Source of the DNA: an uncultured Dehalococcoidia bacterium
Lineage (GTDB): Bacteria > Chloroflexota > Dehalococcoidia > Lucifugimonadales > Australimonadaceae
Direction: 5' to 3'
Length of the DNA: 64,000 nucleotides
NCBI GenBank assembly: GCA_958295525.1
Contig: OY282355.1
Coordinates: 1,848,394-1,912,393, forward strand
The notes under the pieces are model-generated. The model ran no database searches, was not told where the DNA came from, and was given only the letters and a program-made list of their open reading frames with translations. Shown here piece by piece: positions 6,056 to 39,522 of the stretch. The position numbers and the translations under genes are program-made. How positions within the stretch are numbered: the stretch's first letter is position 1; each line of letters starts with the position of its first letter.

Positions 6056-6130
6056 TGGAGCGGGCGATGGGATTCGAACCCACGACCCTCTGCTTGGGAA
6101 GCAGATGCTCTACCCCTGAGCTACGCCCGC
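6056..6130 (-). tRNA. tRNA-Gly (anticodon CCC)
   Basis: The minus strand folds into a complete cloverleaf: acceptor GCGGGCG pairs with CGCCCGC, the anticodon stem TCTGC/GCAGA holds the loop TTCCCAA (anticodon CCC), and the T arm contains GGTTCGAATCC. The 3' CCA is encoded (6056-6058). Confidence 0.95.
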
Positions 6131-6233
6131 GCCGCTGATATGGATTGTAGCGCAAGTTGGGCTGCGCCGGAACTACGGTGCGACCCTCGCGCCACCCTTC
6201 TTACGCCGTTGCGGAGATTGCCTCGCGCTTCGG

Positions 6234-7610
6234 CTAGTCCTCGCCCGCAAGCCCGGCGGCGACAGCGTCCGCAAGCGCGGCGTCGCGCTCCGGCGGAACG
6301 GCGCGCGGGTCGAGCAGAACGCGCTCCCCCTCGATGCGCGCGGCCACCGGGGGCGAGCCCGCCCGAAGCCTGCGCGCTAGTTCGGACGCGCCGCCCGCGC
6401 CGGATGCGTCCACGCTCACGAGTCGCGTCGGCAATTCGTCCGTAGGGAGGCTGCCGCCGCCCAGCCGCGACGCGCCGTCCACGACGGAGGCCGCCGCCCC
6501 AACGCGCTCCGCGACCGCCATAGCGCGGGCGTCCAACTCCTCTAACGGCGCGGCGATCATCCGCCAAATGGGTATCTTCGTTATCGCCTCGCCGCGCGCG
6601 TAGTGCAGCAGCGTCCGGCGGAGCGCGGCCAGCGTCATCTTGTCGGCGCGAAGCGCGCGGGCCAGCGGGTGGCTCCGCAAGGCCGCGACGAGTTCCGCGC
6701 TCCCGGCGGCGATTCCGGCCTGCGGCCCGCCCAGCAATTTGTCGCCGGAGAAGAACACCAGCGCCGCCCCCGCCGCCAAACTCTCCTGCGGCGTCGGCTC
6801 ATGCCCTATGCCGAATTGGGCCGTGTCGAGCAGCGCGCCCGACCCCAAATCGTGCAGGACGGGAACGCCTCGCGCCGCGCCGGCGGCGGCGACCTCCGCA
6901 AGCGCAGGCTCGTGCGTGAAGCCCAAGACGCGGAAGTTGGAGCGGTGAACGACCAGGAGCGCGGCGGTCTGATCCGTCACGGCGCGCTCATAGTCCCGGG
7001 CGTAAGTTCGGTTGACCGTCCCCACCTCCACGAGTTTCGCCCCGCTCTGGGCGAGCACGTCGGGAATGCGGAAGCCGCCCCCGATCTCGCTCGCCTCGCC
7101 GCGTGAAACGACCACCTCGCGCCCGGCGGCGACGGCGGCGAGCCCCAGCAACATCGCGCCCGCGTTGTTGTTGACCGCGACGGCGTCCTCCGCGCCGGTC
7201 AGTTGACGCAGCGTCTGCGCGACGGCGGCATGCCGGTCGCCGCGCCGTCCGTCGGCCAAATCCAACTCCAAGTCCGAGTAGCCTTCGGCGGCGGACGCGG
7301 CGGCGCGAACGCTCTCGGCGGAGAGCGGGGCGCGGCCCAAGTTGGTGTGCAGAATGACGCCCGTTGCGTTGATCACGAGGGCGGGCCAGTCCGCCGCGCT
7401 GCGTTCGGCGGCGTCCGCGACGGCGCGGGCGATGTCCCCGGCGGACGGCGGCGGGACGCCTCTCGCGGCGGCGGCGCGCGCCTCGGCGACGCGCTCGCGG
7501 ACGGCGCCGGTCACGATGCTATGCGGATGGCCTGCGGCCAGCATCGCGGCGACGGGAGGCTGCGCGAGCGCGTCGCTCACGCTCGGCAAGTTGCGGAGGT
7601 TGGCGTTCAT
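6234..7610 (-). CDS. selA: L-seryl-tRNA(Sec) selenium transferase
   Basis: Encodes 458 residues, close to the E. coli enzyme. SelA is a PLP enzyme that converts seryl-tRNA(Sec) to selenocysteyl-tRNA(Sec) with selenophosphate. The N-terminal MNANLRNLPSVSDAL is typical of the family, followed by VINATGVILHTNLGRAPLS near residue 88, NNNAGAMLL, and the PLP-lysine motif FFSGDKLLGGPQAG in the middle of the protein. The ATG at 7610 was chosen over longer in-frame options because of this conserved N-terminus. No selB, selD or tRNA-Sec gene is seen in the window. SelA presence implies a selenoprotein-making host, but no selenoprotein was identified here. Confidence 0.93.
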   Translation of the reverse strand: MNANLRNLPSVSDALAQPPVAAMLAAGHPHSIVTGAVRERVAEARAAAARGVPPPSAGDIARAVADAAERSAADWPALVINATGVILHTNLGRAPLSAESVRAAASAAEGYSDLELDLADGRRGDRHAAVAQTLRQLTGAEDAVAVNNNAGAMLLGLAAVAAGREVVVSRGEASEIGGGFRIPDVLAQSGAKLVEVGTVNRTYARDYERAVTDQTAALLVVHRSNFRVLGFTHEPALAEVAAAGAARGVPVLHDLGSGALLDTAQFGIGHEPTPQESLAAGAALVFFSGDKLLGGPQAGIAAGSAELVAALRSHPLARALRADKMTLAALRRTLLHYARGEAITKIPIWRMIAAPLEELDARAMAVAERVGAAASVVDGASRLGGGSLPTDELPTRLVSVDASGAGGASELARRLRAGSPPVAARIEGERVLLDPRAVPPERDAALADAVAAGLAGED

Positions 7611-7730
7611 TTCGCGCGCTATGTTAGGGGGCGGAAGGGAACGGGGCAAGGAACAGCCCCCTCCCAGGGCGCAGGCGGAATGAAACGCGCCGCGCCGATG
7701 ACTGCGCCTTGCGCCTATAATCAAGGAGAG

Positions 7731-7816
7731 GCCGAGGTGGCGGAACGGCAGACGCGGCGGACTTAAAATCCGCAGTCCGCGCGGACGTGTGGGTTCGAGT
7801 CCCACCCTCGGCACCA
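7731..7816 (+). tRNA. tRNA-Leu (anticodon TAA)
   Basis: Class II tRNA with a long variable arm. Acceptor GCCGAGG (7731-7737) pairs with CCTCGGC (7806-7812), the anticodon loop CTTAAAA gives TAA, the T loop contains GGTTCGAGTCC and the 3' ACCA is encoded. A TATAAT at 7716-7721 is correctly placed to be its -10 box. Confidence 0.94.
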
Positions 7817-7988
7817 CTCCTCGGCGCCGCCCATCGCAAATCGCCCGATTCCCGGACAATTGCTCCTTACGCCCCCATGGCGGACGGCGTAGACTAATCT
7901 ATGGTTCATAGAGGCGTGATGCATCGCCTGCCCGCGCTCACACTGCAAGGGCGGACAAGCGGAGAGCCGCTAGGTTACGAATACCCCC

Positions 7989-9431: not shown

Positions 9432-10774
9432 GCTGCGGCCTCCGAGCGCAGGGCGGCATCAGCGGCGGCGGCGCCGCTCAACGCCGCGCTCTCCATCGTC
9501 GAAGGCCATCCCGTCGCCGTCCAATCGCCCGCCAAAAAGAAGTTGCGGATGGGCGTGACGGCGGGCAGGCGGTTGTCCGGCCCGCCGGGCAGCGAGCGGA
9601 ACGTCGCCCGCCGCTCCTTCACAACGATGAACCGCGTCGCGTTGGCGTCCCGCGCCGCCGGAAACAGCCGCCGCAGTTCGGGAACGAACGCCGCCTGCAG
9701 TTCCTCTTTGCTCATTGGCCAAAACTCCCACGCCGCCGACAGCGACACGGTCAGCCGCTGCCCGGGCCCTTCCTCGCCCGCGATGCGCGAGCGGTTGAAC
9801 ACCCATTGCGCCGGGCTGTCCACGAACGCGGCGAATTCGCAGTCCATCACCGGCCTGTCCCACCAAACGTGCAAGTTGACGATGGGCGACCACTCGTGCG
9901 TTCCCGCCGGAGCGAACGCCGGATGCGTCCGCCACTCTTCCGGCAGCAGGCGCAGCAGAACCTCCGGGGCGAGCGCGCTGACGACAACGTCCGCCCGCAG
10001 CGTTTCCCCTCCGGCGAGGCGCGCGCCCGCGATCCGCCCGTTCTCCACGATGAACGCCTCCGCCGTTTTGCCGGTCAGCGTGGTCGCCCCCGCTTCCGCA
10101 AGGCGCCGCCGCGCAGGGTCGCCCATCAGGGCGGAGAGCCCCGTTTTCGCGCAACCGATGCTCGCGCCGCCGCGGCTCCGCAGCAACGCCTCTTGAAACA
10201 GCATAAACCCCGCGCTCGCCGACACGTCCGCCGATGAATCGTTGAGCGCGGGAATGACGATCAGATCCCAGAACGCAGCGATAGCCCGCTCCGACTGCCC
10301 GCGCGCCCGAAGCCAGTCGCGCAGCGATTGCCGCCGCAGCGCGGGGCGGTCGCGGTCGCGCTCCAGCCGCATCGCCAGCAGCGCGAGCGCCGCCCGCGCC
10401 TTCTCGCGCAGGCCAACGTGGGGATAGCGCAGCAGCGACGGCAGCAGATGCAGCGGCGCGGGCAGGGGCAGCGCGGCGAGCGTTCCACGCTTGCCGTCCG
10501 GCGAGCGCACCTCCACGCGCAGCCGCTTCTGCCGGCTCGTCAGATCCAGCGAGCCGATCTCCTCGAGGAAGCCGCGGTACGCCGCGCAGCAGCCCAGGAA
10601 GACGTGCTGTCCGTTGTCCACCTCCTGCCCCGTCTCCGGGTCGGTGAACGAATACGCCCGCCCGCCCAGGTAGGGGCGCCGCTCGACGAGCGTGACGCTC
10701 GCGCCCGCCCGCGCGAGGCGCAGCGCGGCGGCCATCCCCGCAATCCCTCCGCCCACGACGACGGCGGACGTCAC
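9428..10774 (-). CDS. hpnE: Hydroxysqualene dehydroxylase HpnE
   Basis: Encodes 448 residues from a GTG at 10774 that overlaps the hpnD stop. It is a flavin amine-oxidase/phytoene-desaturase fold enzyme that reduces hydroxysqualene to squalene, the last step of the HpnCDE route. The FAD-binding motif GGGIAGMAAALRLARAGA followed by ERRPYLGG is at the N-terminus, and the C-terminal FAD-contacting stretch NFFLAGDWTATGWPSTMESA is intact. The longer frame upstream of the GTG only shadows hpnD. The identification rests on family motifs and on the hpnC-hpnD-hpnE order. Confidence 0.93.
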   Translation of the reverse strand: MTSAVVVGGGIAGMAAALRLARAGASVTLVERRPYLGGRAYSFTDPETGQEVDNGQHVFLGCCAAYRGFLEEIGSLDLTSRQKRLRVEVRSPDGKRGTLAALPLPAPLHLLPSLLRYPHVGLREKARAALALLAMRLERDRDRPALRRQSLRDWLRARGQSERAIAAFWDLIVIPALNDSSADVSASAGFMLFQEALLRSRGGASIGCAKTGLSALMGDPARRRLAEAGATTLTGKTAEAFIVENGRIAGARLAGGETLRADVVVSALAPEVLLRLLPEEWRTHPAFAPAGTHEWSPIVNLHVWWDRPVMDCEFAAFVDSPAQWVFNRSRIAGEEGPGQRLTVSLSAAWEFWPMSKEELQAAFVPELRRLFPAARDANATRFIVVKERRATFRSLPGGPDNRLPAVTPIRNFFLAGDWTATGWPSTMESAALSGAAAADAALRSEAAA

Positions 10775-28173: not shown

Positions 28174-28298
28174 CGTTCGCGCCTCCGTTCCGCGGCTGGT
28201 TCCGCGCCGCCGCGCCTCAAGGGACAAGGGTAAACCATTGCGCTCAATTCCGCGAGGGGGGGCTGAGGAAGGCGATGGCTAGCCTTGCCGAAATTCGC

Positions 28299-28349
28299 CG
28301 GACATTCGTTCTAATTTGCGTTGACATCATAGAACAAACATTCTATTAT
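28299..28349 (+). promoter_or_regulatory. Consensus sigma-70 promoter with two SOS-box-like operators
   Basis: TTGACA (28321-28326), a 17-bp spacer and TATTAT (28344-28349) form a near-perfect promoter, rare in this GC-rich window. The inverted repeat TAGAACAAACATTCTA (28330-28345) fills the spacer and enters the -10 box. A second site, reading TAGAACGAATGTCC on the minus strand (28300-28313), lies about 31 bp upstream, three helical turns away. Both fit the GAAC-N4-GTTC type of LexA box with one mismatch each. A repressor bound here would block RNA polymerase. LexA as the repressor is an inference. Confidence 0.7.
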
Positions 28350-28380
28350 GCTGCCCATCACTCCTATTGGAGGGGGCGCT

Positions 28381-29709
28381 ATGAAAACGCCAACGGCTTA
28401 TCAGCGGGAGATCGCGGCGGCGGTCGCGGCGGACTTGCTCCACGGGCGCGGCTCCGTCTTCACGGTGGAGGCGCCGCTCGGGGCGGGCGTCCGCGAGTTG
28501 GCGTCGCAGTTGGAGATGCTCGCGCTGAGCGTCAACGTGCAAGCGGGGGGCTCGCTGCTGCGCGTCGTTTCGCCGGACGCGCCCGCCTCGCAGGAGACGG
28601 TGAAGGAGCGGCTAATGGCGAGCCTGCGCGAGAGCGCGCCGCGCGGGCTTTGGTCGGTCGGGGACGCGGACGCGCGGCTGGGCAGGGCGCGGGCGGTGTA
28701 CGCGGCGCCGGAGCAGTTGGAGGGACTGGAGGGGCGATTCGAGATGGCGCAGGCGCTCGACGCCCACCGCCTGAGCGCGGAGGCGGTGGAACGCCTGCAG
28801 GGGATGGCGGATTCGGGCGCGACTGTCGTCCTCTACGGGCGCCCCCGCGACGGCGCGACGCCTTTCGAGCGGCTCAAACTCGCCAACCGCGAGGCGGAAG
28901 CGTCGGCGGGGCGCAAGCATTTCCGCGTTACGCCGGAGCGGGCGCAGGCGGAATTGCCGGGCTACGCGGCGCGGGTTGCGGCGGCGCAAGAGGAACTGGG
29001 CGAGGCGCACCCGGAATTCGAGACGGACTACGCGCTGCGCCCCGTGTCCAACGGCGCCCCCGCCTTCCCGGCGACCCGCTTGCGCGAACTGCTCGCGAGC
29101 GGCGGGCCCCGCCGTTTGGCCGTCGCGGGCGAACTCGTCGCGGCGGTCGTGCTCACGCGGCTGCCGGACGAGGGCAACGGCGCGCTGAGGAGCGCGTCGG
29201 CGACGGCGGTCGCGACGGTGGCGTCGCGCCGCGGTCGGGAGTTGCGCGTTCTGGACCACAAGTGGGCGGAAGCCGCCGACATGGCGTCGCTCGCGCGCTG
29301 CGTCGCGCGTTTCACGGAGAAGACGTGGCCGTGCGAGCGCGTGATCGTCCGGTCGCGGGCGGAGCGTTCGGAGGAGGCGCGGCGGTTGCTGGACGACGCT
29401 CTGGGGGCGCGGCGCGCGCGGTGGGCTCCGAACGATGCGGGGCGGCGCGAGCGCGAGTCGTCCGCCCTGATCGCCGCCGCGCTCACCGGACGGTTGAGCC
29501 TCTACGCGGCCGACGGCTCGCCGGAATACCGCGCGCTGCGGCGCGAGATGGAAAGCGCGGCTCTGCGCCCGGGCGCGGAAGGCGGCCTCGCGGCGGCGGT
29601 GAACGGGCCCGACGAGGGCTTTATGGAGGGGCTTTCGATACTGGTTGAGGAGGACGCGGAGCGCGGGGGGCCGAGGCTCGCCGCGTTGCCCGACGCGCTC
29701 GCGTCCTGA
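28381..29709 (+). CDS. Terminase-like protein with degenerate ATPase and nuclease motifs
   Basis: Encodes 442 residues; GGAGGGGG precedes the ATG. The layout resembles phage terminase large subunits: an N-terminal TAYQREIAAAV start leading to a P-loop position (about residues 31-40), then a C-terminal part ending in GRLSLYAADGSPEYRAL and GFMEGLSILVEE, similar to terminase nuclease domains. The key residues look lost: the P-loop reads APLGAGVREL with no Lys, and the strands that normally bear nuclease aspartates read AVAGELVAAV and VIVRSRAERS. It therefore seems a non-catalytic relative. It follows an operator-controlled promoter and precedes an HTH gene by 75 bases. No other phage gene is near. 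Confidence 0.7.
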   Translation: MKTPTAYQREIAAAVAADLLHGRGSVFTVEAPLGAGVRELASQLEMLALSVNVQAGGSLLRVVSPDAPASQETVKERLMASLRESAPRGLWSVGDADARLGRARAVYAAPEQLEGLEGRFEMAQALDAHRLSAEAVERLQGMADSGATVVLYGRPRDGATPFERLKLANREAEASAGRKHFRVTPERAQAELPGYAARVAAAQEELGEAHPEFETDYALRPVSNGAPAFPATRLRELLASGGPRRLAVAGELVAAVVLTRLPDEGNGALRSASATAVATVASRRGRELRVLDHKWAEAADMASLARCVARFTEKTWPCERVIVRSRAERSEEARRLLDDALGARRARWAPNDAGRRERESSALIAAALTGRLSLYAADGSPEYRALRREMESAALRPGAEGGLAAAVNGPDEGFMEGLSILVEEDAERGGPRLAALPDALAS

Positions 29710-29784
29710 TTCGTGTTGCCTGACCCAGCGAGAACGAACGAATGGACAGCCGTTATGAGACGGACGAAGCGTAAGGAGGGAGAG

Positions 29785-30102
29785 ATGAGCAAGTACACGA
29801 AGACGAACCGCGGGCGCTACGCCCCTGCGCCGGACAGCCTGCCGGAGGAGATGCACTACGCGGACACGGGCTGCGAGGCGTCGGCGTCCTGTCTGAAGTG
29901 CCCGCTGCCGATGTGCAAGTTCGACGACCCCGCTTGGTACCAGGCGCACAAGACGCGCGAGCGGGATATGGAGGTCGTCGCCGCCTTCCGCGAGGAGGGT
30001 CTGCGCGTGTTCGAAGTGGCCGACCGCCTCGGCATCAGCGCGCGGACGGTGAGCCGCGCGCTCCGCAGGACGGGGTTCGCTCCGGCGGCGCAAGCGGCCT
30101 GA
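29785..30102 (+). CDS. Cys-rich helix-turn-helix protein
   Basis: Encodes 105 residues from an ATG with GGAGG upstream. A four-cysteine cluster, C30-X5-C36-X2-C39-X4-C44, includes CLKCPLPMC and could bind zinc or an iron-sulfur cluster. A C-terminal helix-turn-helix spans about residues 73-95 (LRVFEVADRLGISARTVSRA), of the homeodomain-like or Fis-like type. This is a likely DNA-binding protein. It lies 75 bases after the terminase-like gene, and a strong terminator follows at 30155, so the two genes appear to be one transcription unit. Confidence 0.75.
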   Translation: MSKYTKTNRGRYAPAPDSLPEEMHYADTGCEASASCLKCPLPMCKFDDPAWYQAHKTRERDMEVVAAFREEGLRVFEVADRLGISARTVSRALRRTGFAPAAQAA

Positions 30103-30154
30103 TTCGCAGGCCGCGCCCCGGACAACAGCGCAGGCAGCACGAGCAACACGAAAA

Positions 30155-30182
30155 AGCAGCCGGGCTACGCAGCCCGGCTGCT
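30155..30182. terminator. Strong bidirectional terminator
   Basis: A perfect 12-bp stem (30155-30166 with 30171-30182) with an ACGC loop, preceded by an A-run and followed by TTT. It ends the terminase-like/HTH unit and may also serve the minus-strand gene opposite. Confidence 0.8.
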
Positions 30183-30245
30183 TTCGCATAAGCGCGGTGA
30201 TCCCTCACGCGCATGGGACGAAACGCCTCGGAAGGAATAATTCCG

Positions 30246-30704
30246 CTATTCCGCGCGCTCCAGGATGATGACGGGGATCTCCCGCTCGGTGGCCGCTTGG
30301 AATTCGTCGTAGGGCGGGTAGATGCCGGTCATCAGCCGCCAGAGCGCAGGCTTCTCGTCGGGAGAGGCCGCTCGCGCCGTCGCTTGGAATTTATCGGCGG
30401 CGACCTGCACGCCGACGGACGGATTCGCTTCGAGGTTGAGGCGCCACTGGGGATGCGTCGGCGCCCCGCTGCGCGAGGCCACGACGATGTGGCGCCCCGC
30501 GTCCTCGCCGTAGATGAGCGGCGTCGTCACGGGATTGCCCGACTTCCGGCCTATGGTCGTGAGCAGCAGCGTGGGAAGGCCGCGCCAGATATGGCCTTCC
30601 TCGCCGTTGGTCTGCAGGTAGCGCTCCAAGTGCTCGCGCACCCACGGACCGTAACGCGCGTCGTCGGTCAGAAACTCGGGGCGGGCCCCGTTCGAGGTCG
30701 TCAT
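30246..30704 (-). CDS. Deazaflavin (F420)-dependent nitroreductase family protein
   Basis: Encodes 152 residues, typical of the DDN family of split-barrel proteins. The motif TTIGRKSGNPVTTPLIYGED near residue 50, with HIVVASRSGAP after it, binds F420 in known members, and PQWRLNLEANP is also conserved. Family members reduce nitroimidazoles, quinones or enones. AGGAGA precedes the ATG. Its presence suggests that the host makes coenzyme F420, though no F420 biosynthesis gene is in the window. Confidence 0.86.
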   Translation of the reverse strand: MTTSNGARPEFLTDDARYGPWVREHLERYLQTNGEEGHIWRGLPTLLLTTIGRKSGNPVTTPLIYGEDAGRHIVVASRSGAPTHPQWRLNLEANPSVGVQVAADKFQATARAASPDEKPALWRLMTGIYPPYDEFQAATEREIPVIILERAE

Positions 30705-36704: not shown

Positions 36705-37482
36705 TGTAGATGTCAACTAATTCGTTGACAGATCCTGCAGGGCTTGGAGGGGCGTCCTGCCACCCAGACCCTGATGCGGCCTCTCCGTGTTGTAGTACAG
36801 CAGGTACAGCCCCAACTCCTCCTTCAACTCCTCCGCCGTCTCGAACGTCGTCCCCTCCAGCACGTCCTCGTTCAGCGTCCGCCAAAACCGCTCCACCTTC
36901 CCGTTCGTCTGCGGGCGATACGGCCGCGTGTACCGATGCTTGATCCCCAACTCCACGAGCAACCGTTCCATCGGATGCCCCGCCGCGTTCCTCCGCGACG
37001 CCACCTCCGGCCCATTGTCCGTCAGCAGCGCCTCGAACCGGACCCCGTACTCCGCGTTCAGCGCGTTGATCCCCTTGAGCGCCGCGAACATCACGCTCAA
37101 ACTCCGCAGATCGTCCACCACCTCCGCCCAGGCCAGCCGCGTGCAGGAGTCCAGCACGCACACGATGTAGCGGCGCCGCGCGCTCCCCACGATTTGGTCT
37201 TTGCCCAGATAGTGGCAGTCGAGATGCCCCAACTCCCCGGCGCGGGTCTTGATGATCCGGCGTTTGGACTGCTGCATCGGGGGAGTCAATTTGTTGAGGC
37301 CGTGGCGTTCGCAGATGGCGTAGATGGTGGTGGGCTTCGGCGTGCGGTCGCCGAGGGTGGGCGCGCCACTTTTGGGTGTAGTTGCGCTCGATGGTCTGGT
37401 CGTTGCGGTTGTCGTGCATGGTCGTCTCCAGATCGGCCTGTTCGCCGGGCCAATTCTGTCAACGAATTATCTAACATCTACA
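36705..37482 (-). mobile_element. IS481-like insertion sequence, 778 bp, with target duplication
   Basis: The left end TGTAGATGTCAACTAATTCG and the complement of the right end TGTAGATGTTAGATAATTCG form imperfect terminal inverted repeats of about 27 bp, both continuing with TTGACAG. The element is flanked by the direct repeat ATTCC (36700-36704 and 37483-37487), a 5-bp target duplication. Joining the flanks restores ATTCCTGCGAAAGCAGGAA, a diverged copy of the dispersed palindrome, so the IS landed inside one. The internal DDE transposase is frameshifted. Confidence 0.88.
36717..37419 (-). pseudogene. DDE transposase (IS481-like), frameshifted
   Basis: The frame that starts at 37419 (MHDNRNDQTIERNYTQK) is broken near 37365; the sensible continuation, from APTLGDRTPKPTTIYAICER, lies in another frame and runs to a TAG inside the left terminal repeat. 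The catalytic core is intact: LDCHYLG with the first Asp, LLTDNGPEVASR with the second, and RPYRPQTNGKVERFWRTLN with the Glu, followed by YYNTERPHQGLGG. A normal N-terminal helix-turn-helix appears short or absent. Programmed frameshifting is possible, but no slippery A-run is evident. Confidence 0.75.
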
Positions 37483-37625
37483 ATTCCTGCGAAAGCAGGA
37501 ACCTACTGGGGCCGCCTCCATGCATATGCGGGGGAATCTGTTGGCCACGTCATTCCCGCAAAGGCGAAACCTACGGGCCGCCGCCCGCTATAATCGCCGC
37601 CTATTCCAACGCGCAAAGAGAAGCA

Positions 37626-38810
37626 ATGCCTTCCCCCGAAAACCACCGACGCATCGAACTCACGCCGGAGACGCCCCTTGACGAGGCGGCGGACGACGCG
37701 CTCGCGTCGCTCAATCGCCGCTTCGAGCCGAACGACTTCTACGTCGCGCGGAACGGCGGCGCGCTGGAGGTGCGGCTGCGGCAAGTGGACGTCAATGCGC
37801 TGCGGGACGCCGCAGACGAGTCGGGGCGGCTGCACGGCAACGCGGACGCGATGAGCAAGATCGTCGAGGCGGTGGAGAGCGTCGGGAGTTACGGAATCAA
37901 CGGGAGCAAGCGCCTCTACGTCGGCTACAACCGCGAGCGCAAGGTCGCCGGACGCAAGGGCAAGGAGCGGCGGCGCGGCAAGCATTACTATGCGAACGAC
38001 CACGCCCACGAGCGCGGCGCCAACCCGCTCCCGCCGGAATTCACCGACAAAATCGTCTGCGGCGACAGCGAGGAAGTCCTCAAGCGGCTGCCCGACAACT
38101 GCGTTGATCTCGTGTTCACCTCGCCGCCGTACAACTTTGGGCTGGGCTACGAGGAAGGCGGAGGCGGCTCGTCCGGCGACGACGCGGCGGACTGGGAGGC
38201 GTACTTCGCCAAACTCTTCCGCGTGTTCGACGAGTGCGTCCGCGTGCTCAAGTTCGGCGGACGCATCGCCGTCAACCTGCAGCCCCTCTTCTCCGACTAC
38301 ATCCCCAGCCACCACGTCGTCTCCAACTACTTTATGGGGAAGCGCCTGATCTGGAAGGGGGAAATCCTCTGGGAGAAGAACAACTACAACTGCAAGTACA
38401 CCGCTTGGGGCAGTTGGAAGAGCCCCGCGAGCCCGTACCTGAAGTACACGTGGGAGTTCATCGAGGTGTTCGCCAAAGGCAGCCTCAAGAAAGACGGCGA
38501 CCCAAGCGCCGCCGACATAGACGCCGACTCCTTCAAAGAGTGGACGCTGGCCAAGTGGTCCATCGCGCCGGAGCGCCGGATGCGCGAGTTCGGCCACCCC
38601 GCGATGTTCCCGGAGGAACTCGCCCGCCGCATCCTGCTGCTGTTCAGTTTCCGCGGCGACGCCGTGCTCGACCCGTTCGCAGGCGTCGGCACGACGAGCG
38701 TCGCGGCGCAGGCGACGGGCCGCCGTCACCTCGGCATAGACGCCGCCCCCGAGTACTGCGCGACGGCTGAGCGGCGCCTGAGCGGGACTGTGCAATATCT
38801 TGCGATATAA
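37626..38810 (+). CDS. Beta-class DNA methyltransferase (N4-cytosine or N6-adenine)
   Basis: Encodes 394 residues. The catalytic motif TSPPYNFGL (motif IV) is at about residues 165-173 and the AdoMet motif DPFAGVGTT (motif I) at 349-357, an order that defines the beta class. SPPY favours N4-cytosine, but adenine methylation is not excluded. About 140 N-terminal residues precede the catalytic domain and may help in DNA recognition. It starts 140 bases after the IS; a TATAAT at 37589-37594 may be its promoter. With the GIY-YIG protein downstream it looks like the modification half of a restriction system. Confidence 0.9.
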   Translation: MPSPENHRRIELTPETPLDEAADDALASLNRRFEPNDFYVARNGGALEVRLRQVDVNALRDAADESGRLHGNADAMSKIVEAVESVGSYGINGSKRLYVGYNRERKVAGRKGKERRRGKHYYANDHAHERGANPLPPEFTDKIVCGDSEEVLKRLPDNCVDLVFTSPPYNFGLGYEEGGGGSSGDDAADWEAYFAKLFRVFDECVRVLKFGGRIAVNLQPLFSDYIPSHHVVSNYFMGKRLIWKGEILWEKNNYNCKYTAWGSWKSPASPYLKYTWEFIEVFAKGSLKKDGDPSAADIDADSFKEWTLAKWSIAPERRMREFGHPAMFPEELARRILLLFSFRGDAVLDPFAGVGTTSVAAQATGRRHLGIDAAPEYCATAERRLSGTVQYLAI

Positions 38811-38859
38811 TCCTCTTTGATAGGATTAGGGCGCGATTGCGCTGCATAGGTGAAAGGAA

Positions 38860-39522
38860 ATGGTTACGTCGGAAGACAACGACAAGCGTGGGACCGTGTA
38901 CATTCTGACCAATGAGTCTATGCCTGGCCACATCAAAATTGGCATGGTCGGAGGAGAGTCGCCAAAGGACGTAGAGGCACGGATGCGCGTGTTGGACGAC
39001 ACCGGAGTGCCCAGGCCGTTTGACTGCGTGTACGCCGCCGTAGTGGCTGACGCTCGCACAGTGGAGTCGACCTTGCACAAGGTGTTCGGAGATCGGCGCG
39101 TCCGCCCTAACCGCGAATTCTTTGAGGGGGTGGAGGTGTTTAGGGTGAAAGCCGCGCTCAGTCTTGTGGCGGAGCGCGACGTAACTCCTGGGATAACCAT
39201 CGATACGAACGAGGAAGGCGAGGCGGTGCAAGTGAAACCTCCCAAGCGCCCTCCGTTCAGGTTCTCTATGGTGGACATTCCCAACGGAACGGAATTGGCG
39301 TTCTTACGAGACGAGAACATCACCTGCAAGGTCAAGGACGACCGCCATGTTGAGTACGGGGAAGACACAAGGTCACTGTCTCCTCTAACACAAGAACTTC
39401 TCAACGCTCCTCGGTCTCCCGCCGGGCCCGACTATTGGCTGTACCAAGGCGAAACGCTGAGCGAGCGGCGTAGGCGATTAGAGGAGGAGCGGCTGGAAAA
39501 CGAGGATATAGAGGGAGACTAG
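38860..39522 (+). CDS. GIY-YIG (T5orf172-type) nuclease fused to a RAMA-like domain
   Basis: Encodes 220 residues with visibly lower GC than its neighbours. The N-terminal domain matches the T5orf172 form of GIY-YIG nucleases: GTVYILTN at residues 11-18, HIKIGMV near 24, an Arg near 41 in VEARMRVLDDTG, and TVESTLHKVFG plus NREFF near 67-88. The C-terminal part (about 130-200) looks like RAMA: NGTELAFLRDENITCKV, LSPLTQELLN, then DYWLYQGETL. RAMA domains are linked to reading or restricting modified DNA. The gene lies 49 bases after a methyltransferase, so it is the likely restriction component. Confidence 0.78.
   Translation: MVTSEDNDKRGTVYILTNESMPGHIKIGMVGGESPKDVEARMRVLDDTGVPRPFDCVYAAVVADARTVESTLHKVFGDRRVRPNREFFEGVEVFRVKAALSLVAERDVTPGITIDTNEEGEAVQVKPPKRPPFRFSMVDIPNGTELAFLRDENITCKVKDDRHVEYGEDTRSLSPLTQELLNAPRSPAGPDYWLYQGETLSERRRRLEEERLENEDIEGD

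Follow-up and report, generated by a model that had tools for sequence, protein, structure and literature searches.

The large subunits of phage terminases (TerL), such as those of D6E (PDB 5OEB) and P74-26/G20c, are the closest described relatives of the locus analyzed here. Its first gene product, P0001, shares their two-domain fold over nearly its full length but is without the P-loop lysine, the Walker B acids and the nuclease aspartates, and, unlike phage TerL, it stands without a neighbouring portal, TerS or capsid gene, and the genomes of its bacterial family (f1) have no capsid gene of the phage family elsewhere. Gene transfer agents (GTAs) such as RcGTA and CcGTA resemble what we find in sister families of f1, where structural genes of phage origin are passed on vertically, lie at two or more places in the chromosome and are regulated by the host. 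In those families, however, control is through LexA-type boxes and there is no evidence on particle production, whereas f1 itself, without capsid, portal and TerS, fails the complete particle-gene set. A GTA-based contribution to DNA repair has been reported in Caulobacter (PMC9632790).

On the regulatory side, GAAC-N4-GTTC is the known LexA box of the Gram-positive Firmicutes and Actinobacteria (PMC3323433). The regulon inferred below shares with the Gram-positive LexA/SOS regulon its operator sequence, the overlap of operator and promoter, and lexA and Y-family polymerase genes as members, but it also includes an operon for a dead TerL and a helix-turn-helix (HTH) protein, for which we know of no counterpart in the SOS regulons described so far. 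Phage late transcription activators (PHROG 836) are likewise small HTH proteins encoded beside structural genes, and relatives of the second product of the operon, P0002, give a weak profile match to them over the HTH; in contrast to these activators, P0002 carries an N-terminal four-cysteine (Cys4) cluster and is kept without any phage structural genes. Among PADLOC defence models none finds P0001, and P0002 gives weak HTH matches only. A literature search returned no report of a domesticated or dead SOS-controlled terminase, a SAR202 terminase or a Chloroflexota GTA, although such absence is not proof.

The window, a stretch of 64,000 nucleotides from an uncultured Dehalococcoidia bacterium, lies within a 2.5-Mb single-contig genome whose close relatives in named records are Chloroflexota labelled Dehalococcoidia, SAR202 cluster bacteria or Chloroflexi bacteria. 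The operon is flanked upstream, on the opposite strand, by a gene for an NAD-dependent epimerase and downstream by a convergent gene for an F420H2-dependent quinone reductase. All neighbours are chromosomal housekeeping genes; no integrase, capsid or other phage gene was found around the pair, nor was TerS, portal or capsid found beside it in any f1 genome carrying it. The promoter, TTGACA-17-TATTAT, matches at 11 of 12 positions and is the sole sigma-70-like site within 28200-30260 (0.1 in shuffles), while the terminator hairpin, in a stretch at -29.8 kcal/mol (z -4.85), is probably bidirectional and serves the convergent gene too. The first-pass annotation, made from the window's sequence alone, had described genes of 442 and 105 residues between a near-consensus promoter and a strong terminator, with no capsid, portal or integrase gene nearby, and this description is borne out. 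Its two GAAC-N4-GTTC-like boxes also stand, each as a 7/8 match, but their starts lie 32 bp apart and not 31.

Table. Features of the operon and its control region, in window coordinates.
Feature	Position	Strand	Remark
Upstream LexA-type box GGACATTCGTTC	28300..28311		7/8 to GAAC-N4-GTTC
-35 hexamer TTGACA	28321..28326	+	
LexA-type box GAACAAACATTC	28332..28343		7/8; within the -35/-10 spacer
-10 hexamer TATTAT	28344..28349	+	
RBS GGAGG of the pseudo-terminase gene	28369..28373	+	by sequence
Pseudo-terminase (P0001), catalytically degenerate terminase large subunit, 442 aa	28381..29709	+	
Former P-loop, residues 31-40, APLGAGVREL	28471..28500	+	ARQGGKNELS in intact relatives; Lys to Val37
Former Walker B, residues 122-129, MAQALDAH	28744..28767	+	LLEMDEAQ in intact relatives; Asp to Leu126, Glu to Asp127
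Strand of the former first nuclease Asp, residues 254-260	29140..29160	+	AGIDVAG in intact relatives; Asp lost
Former third nuclease Asp, now Gly413	29617..29619	+	Gly in 12/12 f1
C-terminal ALAS tail of the pseudo-terminase	29695..29706	+	resembles the ALAA end of the genome's tmRNA tag
RBS AAGGAGG of the HTH gene	29773..29779	+	by sequence
Cys4 and HTH protein (P0002), 105 aa	29785..30102	+	Cys 30, 36, 39, 44; HTH about 59-96
Intrinsic terminator hairpin	30153..30184		14-bp stem

A chance open reading frame in GC-rich DNA is ruled out for P0001 by GC3 periodicity, by dN/dS and by the sense frame, the only one of the six without stops in the 12 full-length orthologs; a 525-aa antisense open reading frame is not conserved and was rejected as a gene. 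Elsewhere in the window, at 36774-39522, an N6/N4 DNA methylase gene is followed by one for a T5orf172 (GIY-YIG-like) protein and adjoins an rve-type transposase (36720-37289), possibly forming a restriction-modification-like mobile unit.

Pfam, PHROG and NCBIfam profiles gave no TerL match to P0001, even at loose thresholds, so that the first-pass call of a TerL-like protein, based on its layout, was both correct and non-trivial. An AlphaFold model built with 19 homologs (mean pLDDT 86, pTM 0.84) places terminases on top in Foldseek (Sf6 gp2, E 1e-15), and VIA-align superimposes 375 residues on the large terminase of phage D6E with a Z of 23.8. In these alignments residues 1-223 match ATPase domains and residues 225-428 match RNase H-like nuclease domains. 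By this model, P0001 has the full two-domain TerL fold (ASCE ATPase plus RNase H-like nuclease), with its last 13 residues unstructured.

Comparison of the catalytic motifs across 178 sequences sets f1 apart. The P-loop lysine is present in 78/78 viral sequences, in 7/7 from other families of the same order and in every non-f1 genome copy covering the site, and is absent from 14/14 f1 copies; the nuclease and Walker residues are likewise kept in all 78 viral and all seven same-order sequences and in essentially all other genome copies. Homologs from the other families of the order match a TerL profile (PHROG 38, E 1.6e-4) and retain all motifs (ARQGGKNE, DEAQ, the nuclease aspartates and GHDDF). 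Within f1, the first and third nuclease aspartates are lost in each of the 12 full-length copies, the third always to glycine, while the second survives in three of the 12; in the window's protein all three metal-binding aspartates are replaced. We note that nine seemingly degenerate "genome" copies among the 178 are f1 genomes retrieved twice, and that the viral set was retrieved with patterns that include the motifs, which biases its complete conservation, whereas the pattern used for the genome set was independent of the lysine. As the first-pass annotation had supposed of the P-loop lysine and the nuclease aspartates, alignment with 155 intact relatives confirms that P0001, hereafter the pseudo-terminase, is without the catalytic residues of both its ATPase and its nuclease.

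P0002 proved to be the four-cysteine HTH protein that had been described, matching HTH_23 (E 3.6e-6) and bearing an N-terminal C-x5-C-x2-C-x4-C cluster invariant in 26/26 proteins. The PHROG 836 profile ("late transcriptional activator") matches HTH proteins of intact cassettes and of phages (E 8e-6 and 3e-5) but P0002 itself at E 0.016 only, and low profile scores confined to the HTH are all that supports the link to late activators. In Foldseek no match to P0002 fell below E 0.1, and those returned were of generic HTH, DeoR, Mor and sigma region 4 types. A second Cys4-HTH paralog was seen in G006 (L048/L153, G006:C170), with a longer open frame, no TerL and no box within 300 bp.

By itself the window offers little support for the boxes. 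Its 64 kb contain 30 sites that score 7/8 or better, from which chance would yield about 0.6 pairs spaced no more than 40 bp apart; the pair at the operon is the only one. Decisive are the orthologous promoters. All 14 f1 genomes with the gene pair have two sites of at least 7/8 that lie no farther than 130 bp from the start and 20-45 bp from each other (shuffle rate at most 0.002 per genome), and many of these promoters have a third box, with a spacing of about 30-32 bp. The spacer box is 8/8 in 12 of 13 sister promoters and 7/8 in G011; the place of the upstream box holds an 8/8 site in G001, G003, G004 and G005. The 14-mer AGAAC-N4-GTTCT is found one to five times per f1 genome, with one copy just upstream of the pair in 13/13 sister genomes, and is absent from the window's own genome, whose boxes are 7/8. 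In the window's genome the total count of GAAC-N4-GTTC is uninformative (22 against 21 in the control).

The same box marks recognized SOS genes. The first-pass annotation had looked to recA and lexA, and the expectation held for lexA, whose promoter in the window's genome has a perfect box (GAACGAAAGTTC) and which has an upstream box in most of 24 genomes, this one included; it did not hold for the genome's recA, where the upstream stretch read (L096) contains none, although recA is boxed in G009, G014 and G020. Y-family polymerase genes (IMS domain) in relatives show the same arrangement of TTGACA, box and -10. On this comparative evidence the box is a LexA operator; there are no expression or binding data.

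Several other boxed genes came to light. LexA-boxed Y-family polymerase genes lie at L347 1589-3001, L345 1459-2898, L348 (reverse) and L354 233-1420; in the first three, the N-terminus (VACVLITHLRAKVEL...) is without the usual metal-binding aspartate, and these proteins are probably ImuB-like and non-catalytic, so that this SOS regulon would include another dead enzyme. In two families, a LexA-type box lies 32-34 bp ahead of a gene for a radical-SAM and helix-hairpin-helix protein (L357 1524-2825; L433 1151-2464, reverse), which is likely a conserved SOS gene; its domains were assigned by Pfam on L357 only and by sequence likeness on L433. In G040 (L128 ~6085-7844, G040:C91), a TerL cassette and recA are divergent neighbours, and the interval that separates them contains a perfect LexA-type box.

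Other families of the order reveal the setting from which the pair may derive. There we find a cassette of the order c12-c7-c8-c9-TerL-HTH-c10, usually small genes, TerS-like, TerL, HTH and portal, with catalytic residues intact. Protein c10 is a portal (PF05133, 1e-14; PHROG 64, 4e-28), not called in the cassettes of G035 and G021, and TerS is matched (5e-8) by proteins of the c8 type from phage contigs. An intact TerL of this phage family is encoded in at least 220 IMG/VR stretches, and phage contigs have the order TerS-TerL-(HTH)-portal-scaffold-capsid; together these point to a tailed-phage lineage as the source. The chromosomal cassettes are flanked by housekeeping genes. Upstream of the cassette in G038 lies a block of AsnC-domain, HIT and c2 genes; this block also precedes the pair in many f1 genomes and, in G018 and G028, the HTH gene, which indicates a shared ancestral site.

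Since no box lies within 180 bp upstream of the intact TerL genes, the boxes might have been an f1 novelty, an idea ruled out by scanning whole cassettes: each of the seven intact cassettes carries a box scoring 7/8 or better close to its first gene, in G038 and G027 inside a seemingly N-terminally over-extended gene call. SOS control is therefore older than the degeneration of the terminase. LexA-boxed cassettes with TerS-like, TerL, HTH and often portal genes in other Dehalococcoidia families lie in L123-L129. Counts of the 13-mer in sister-family genomes are at or below control, so only site positions are informative there, and most other inspected box sites in these genomes are not at phage genes.

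Capsid genes of the phage family occur elsewhere in the chromosome in G021, G027, G035, G040 and G043 (partial in G027 and G043), with a box just upstream in G035, G021 and G040, and one is interrupted in G028; none was found in 14 f1 genomes, nor in G018, G022, G029 and G038. LexA-boxed major capsid genes with head-tail genes, separate from the cassette, were located at L393 8831-12611, L395 8851-13294 and L394 (reverse, ~9478-10368). We regard the sister-family loci as a candidate split-locus, damage-controlled GTA-like element, and infer an ancestor of this kind under LexA control, particle production being unshown. The HTH gene persists alone under boxes in G018, G022 and G024. The window's family has lost its capsid, portal and small genes and its terminase is dead, yet pseudo-terminase and HTH protein persist.

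The pair is present in 14 of 16 f1 genomes (Dehalococcoidia/SAR202-type). It was not found in G010 (75% complete) and G014 (93% complete, with a sister that has the pair); in G014 it is either dispensable or unassembled. A multi-copy mobile element is ruled out, the pair being single-copy. Where the first-pass annotation had allowed that relatives might carry the pair in a prophage, they instead have a single-copy locus that is vertically inherited at its ancestral site.

Careful comparison of these data leads us to favor, as a probable though by no means secure explanation, a LexA-controlled two-gene operon from an inherited phage-derived packaging system, kept for a host purpose, with the HTH protein as effector and the pseudo-terminase as partner. 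We hold the identity and regulation of the operon with high confidence, even without expression or binding data. The essence of the first-pass proposal, an SOS-controlled, non-catalytic, domesticated terminase with a DNA-binding partner, is supported by the promoters of relatives, the lexA boxes, the catalytic loss and the selection described below. Counting against this explanation are the 7/8 scores of both window boxes, the box-less recA, the missing pair in G014, the truncation in genus g4 and the long f1 branches.

Among the alternatives, interference with phages comes narrowly first, though we think it unlikely: the dead TerL would poison the packaging motor of related phages as a dominant negative, and the HTH protein would block or mistime their late genes. 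The abundance of related phages with intact TerL in IMG/VR agrees with this, SOS timing would fit prophage induction, and neither an intact TerL nor a capsid gene of the phage family was found in the f1 genomes; this absence, however, may merely reflect that no infection occurs. The pseudo-terminase is only ~27-32% identical to intact TerLs, which are ~50-73% identical to one another, its C-terminal end differs from theirs, and the PADLOC searches lend no support.

A role as a DNA-repair accessory, in which pseudo-terminase and HTH protein would bind broken ends or replication forks as a structural SOS component, is doubtful. Co-regulation with lexA and Y-family polymerase genes through shared boxes speaks for it, the ATPase-plus-RNase-H-like fold is a DNA-handling fold, and the Caulobacter report offers a precedent. 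There is no synteny link to repair genes, however, the active sites are gone, and g4 manages without the second domain. In both species of that genus the pseudo-terminase is shortened to ~200 aa and the HTH gene retained, which implies that the nuclease-like domain is not always required.

The same truncation, together with the loss of most of the cassette and with G010 and G014, where no pseudo-terminase was found, could instead mark a GTA-like element being lost, with the HTH protein useful otherwise and the pseudo-terminase merely carried along until it disappears. Among sister species of the window's genus (g1), the Nei-Gojobori dN/dS of the pseudo-terminase is 0.145-0.217 (0.26-0.36 against the window species), above the 0.04-0.12 of the HTH gene, as decay would have it. 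Nevertheless, these ratios still imply clear purifying selection on the pair, and the frame is open in every copy found (14 genomes). In the phylogeny the f1 proteins form one clade with support 100, their long branches joined within f1. Of 122 positions invariant in intact TerL they have kept 38 and lost 51, and ~30 positions are conserved in f1 only, including N153 to Gly, L169 to Phe, D433 to Gly and S437 to Gly (intact numbering), a new and family-wide invariant Arg260 on the strand of the former first nuclease aspartate, and a C-terminal Ala-Ser with which nearly all f1 copies end, often as ALAS. Persistence of both genes with such new residues under purifying selection argues for domestication and not decay, and the relic reading, improbable to us, is already disfavoured.

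Least credible by far is autoregulation, with the boxes as operators of the Cys4-HTH protein and not of LexA: arrays of two or three boxes and boxed stand-alone HTH genes would suit it, but in the family's genomes lexA and Y-family polymerase genes share this box, which is the LexA box of Gram-positives.

Returning to the favored reading of a host-purposed LexA operon, the following course of events may be envisaged: (I) DNA damage would lead to LexA cleavage, and pseudo-terminase and HTH protein would be made together; (II) the HTH protein, descended from a phage late activator, would act as effector, a second-tier SOS DNA-binding regulator; (III) the pseudo-terminase would serve as a non-enzymatic scaffold or DNA-docking partner modulating it; and (IV) both would then be quickly removed via their alanine-rich C-terminal tails. 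The division into effector and non-enzymatic partner is an inferred biochemical role that we put forward only tentatively. For the tails, the evidence is resemblance alone: the genome's tmRNA tag ends in ...PVALAA and the pseudo-terminase in ...ALAS. Many HTH proteins of f1 likewise close with LAA or AAA and so resemble the tag encoded by their own genomes, which makes built-in ClpXP degrons possible. More broadly, Dehalococcoidia could inherit a LexA-controlled, split GTA-like system (a TerS-TerL-HTH-portal cassette plus a capsid locus) that f1 dismantled, reusing pseudo-terminase and Cys4-HTH protein as a dedicated SOS effector, a scenario we find conceivable without quite favoring it.

In sum, comparative evidence identifies the pseudo-terminase as a putatively domesticated phage gene in an operon of the LexA regulon. 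Few viral enzymes are as conserved as terminase motors. A non-catalytic one kept by a host under its SOS repressor, and selected for as long as the family has existed or longer, would, if this holds, represent a new kind of pseudoenzyme and open a new function of the SOS regulon to testing. The intact LexA-boxed packaging and capsid loci of the sister families point, in turn, to an undescribed damage-controlled GTA-like element in Chloroflexota.
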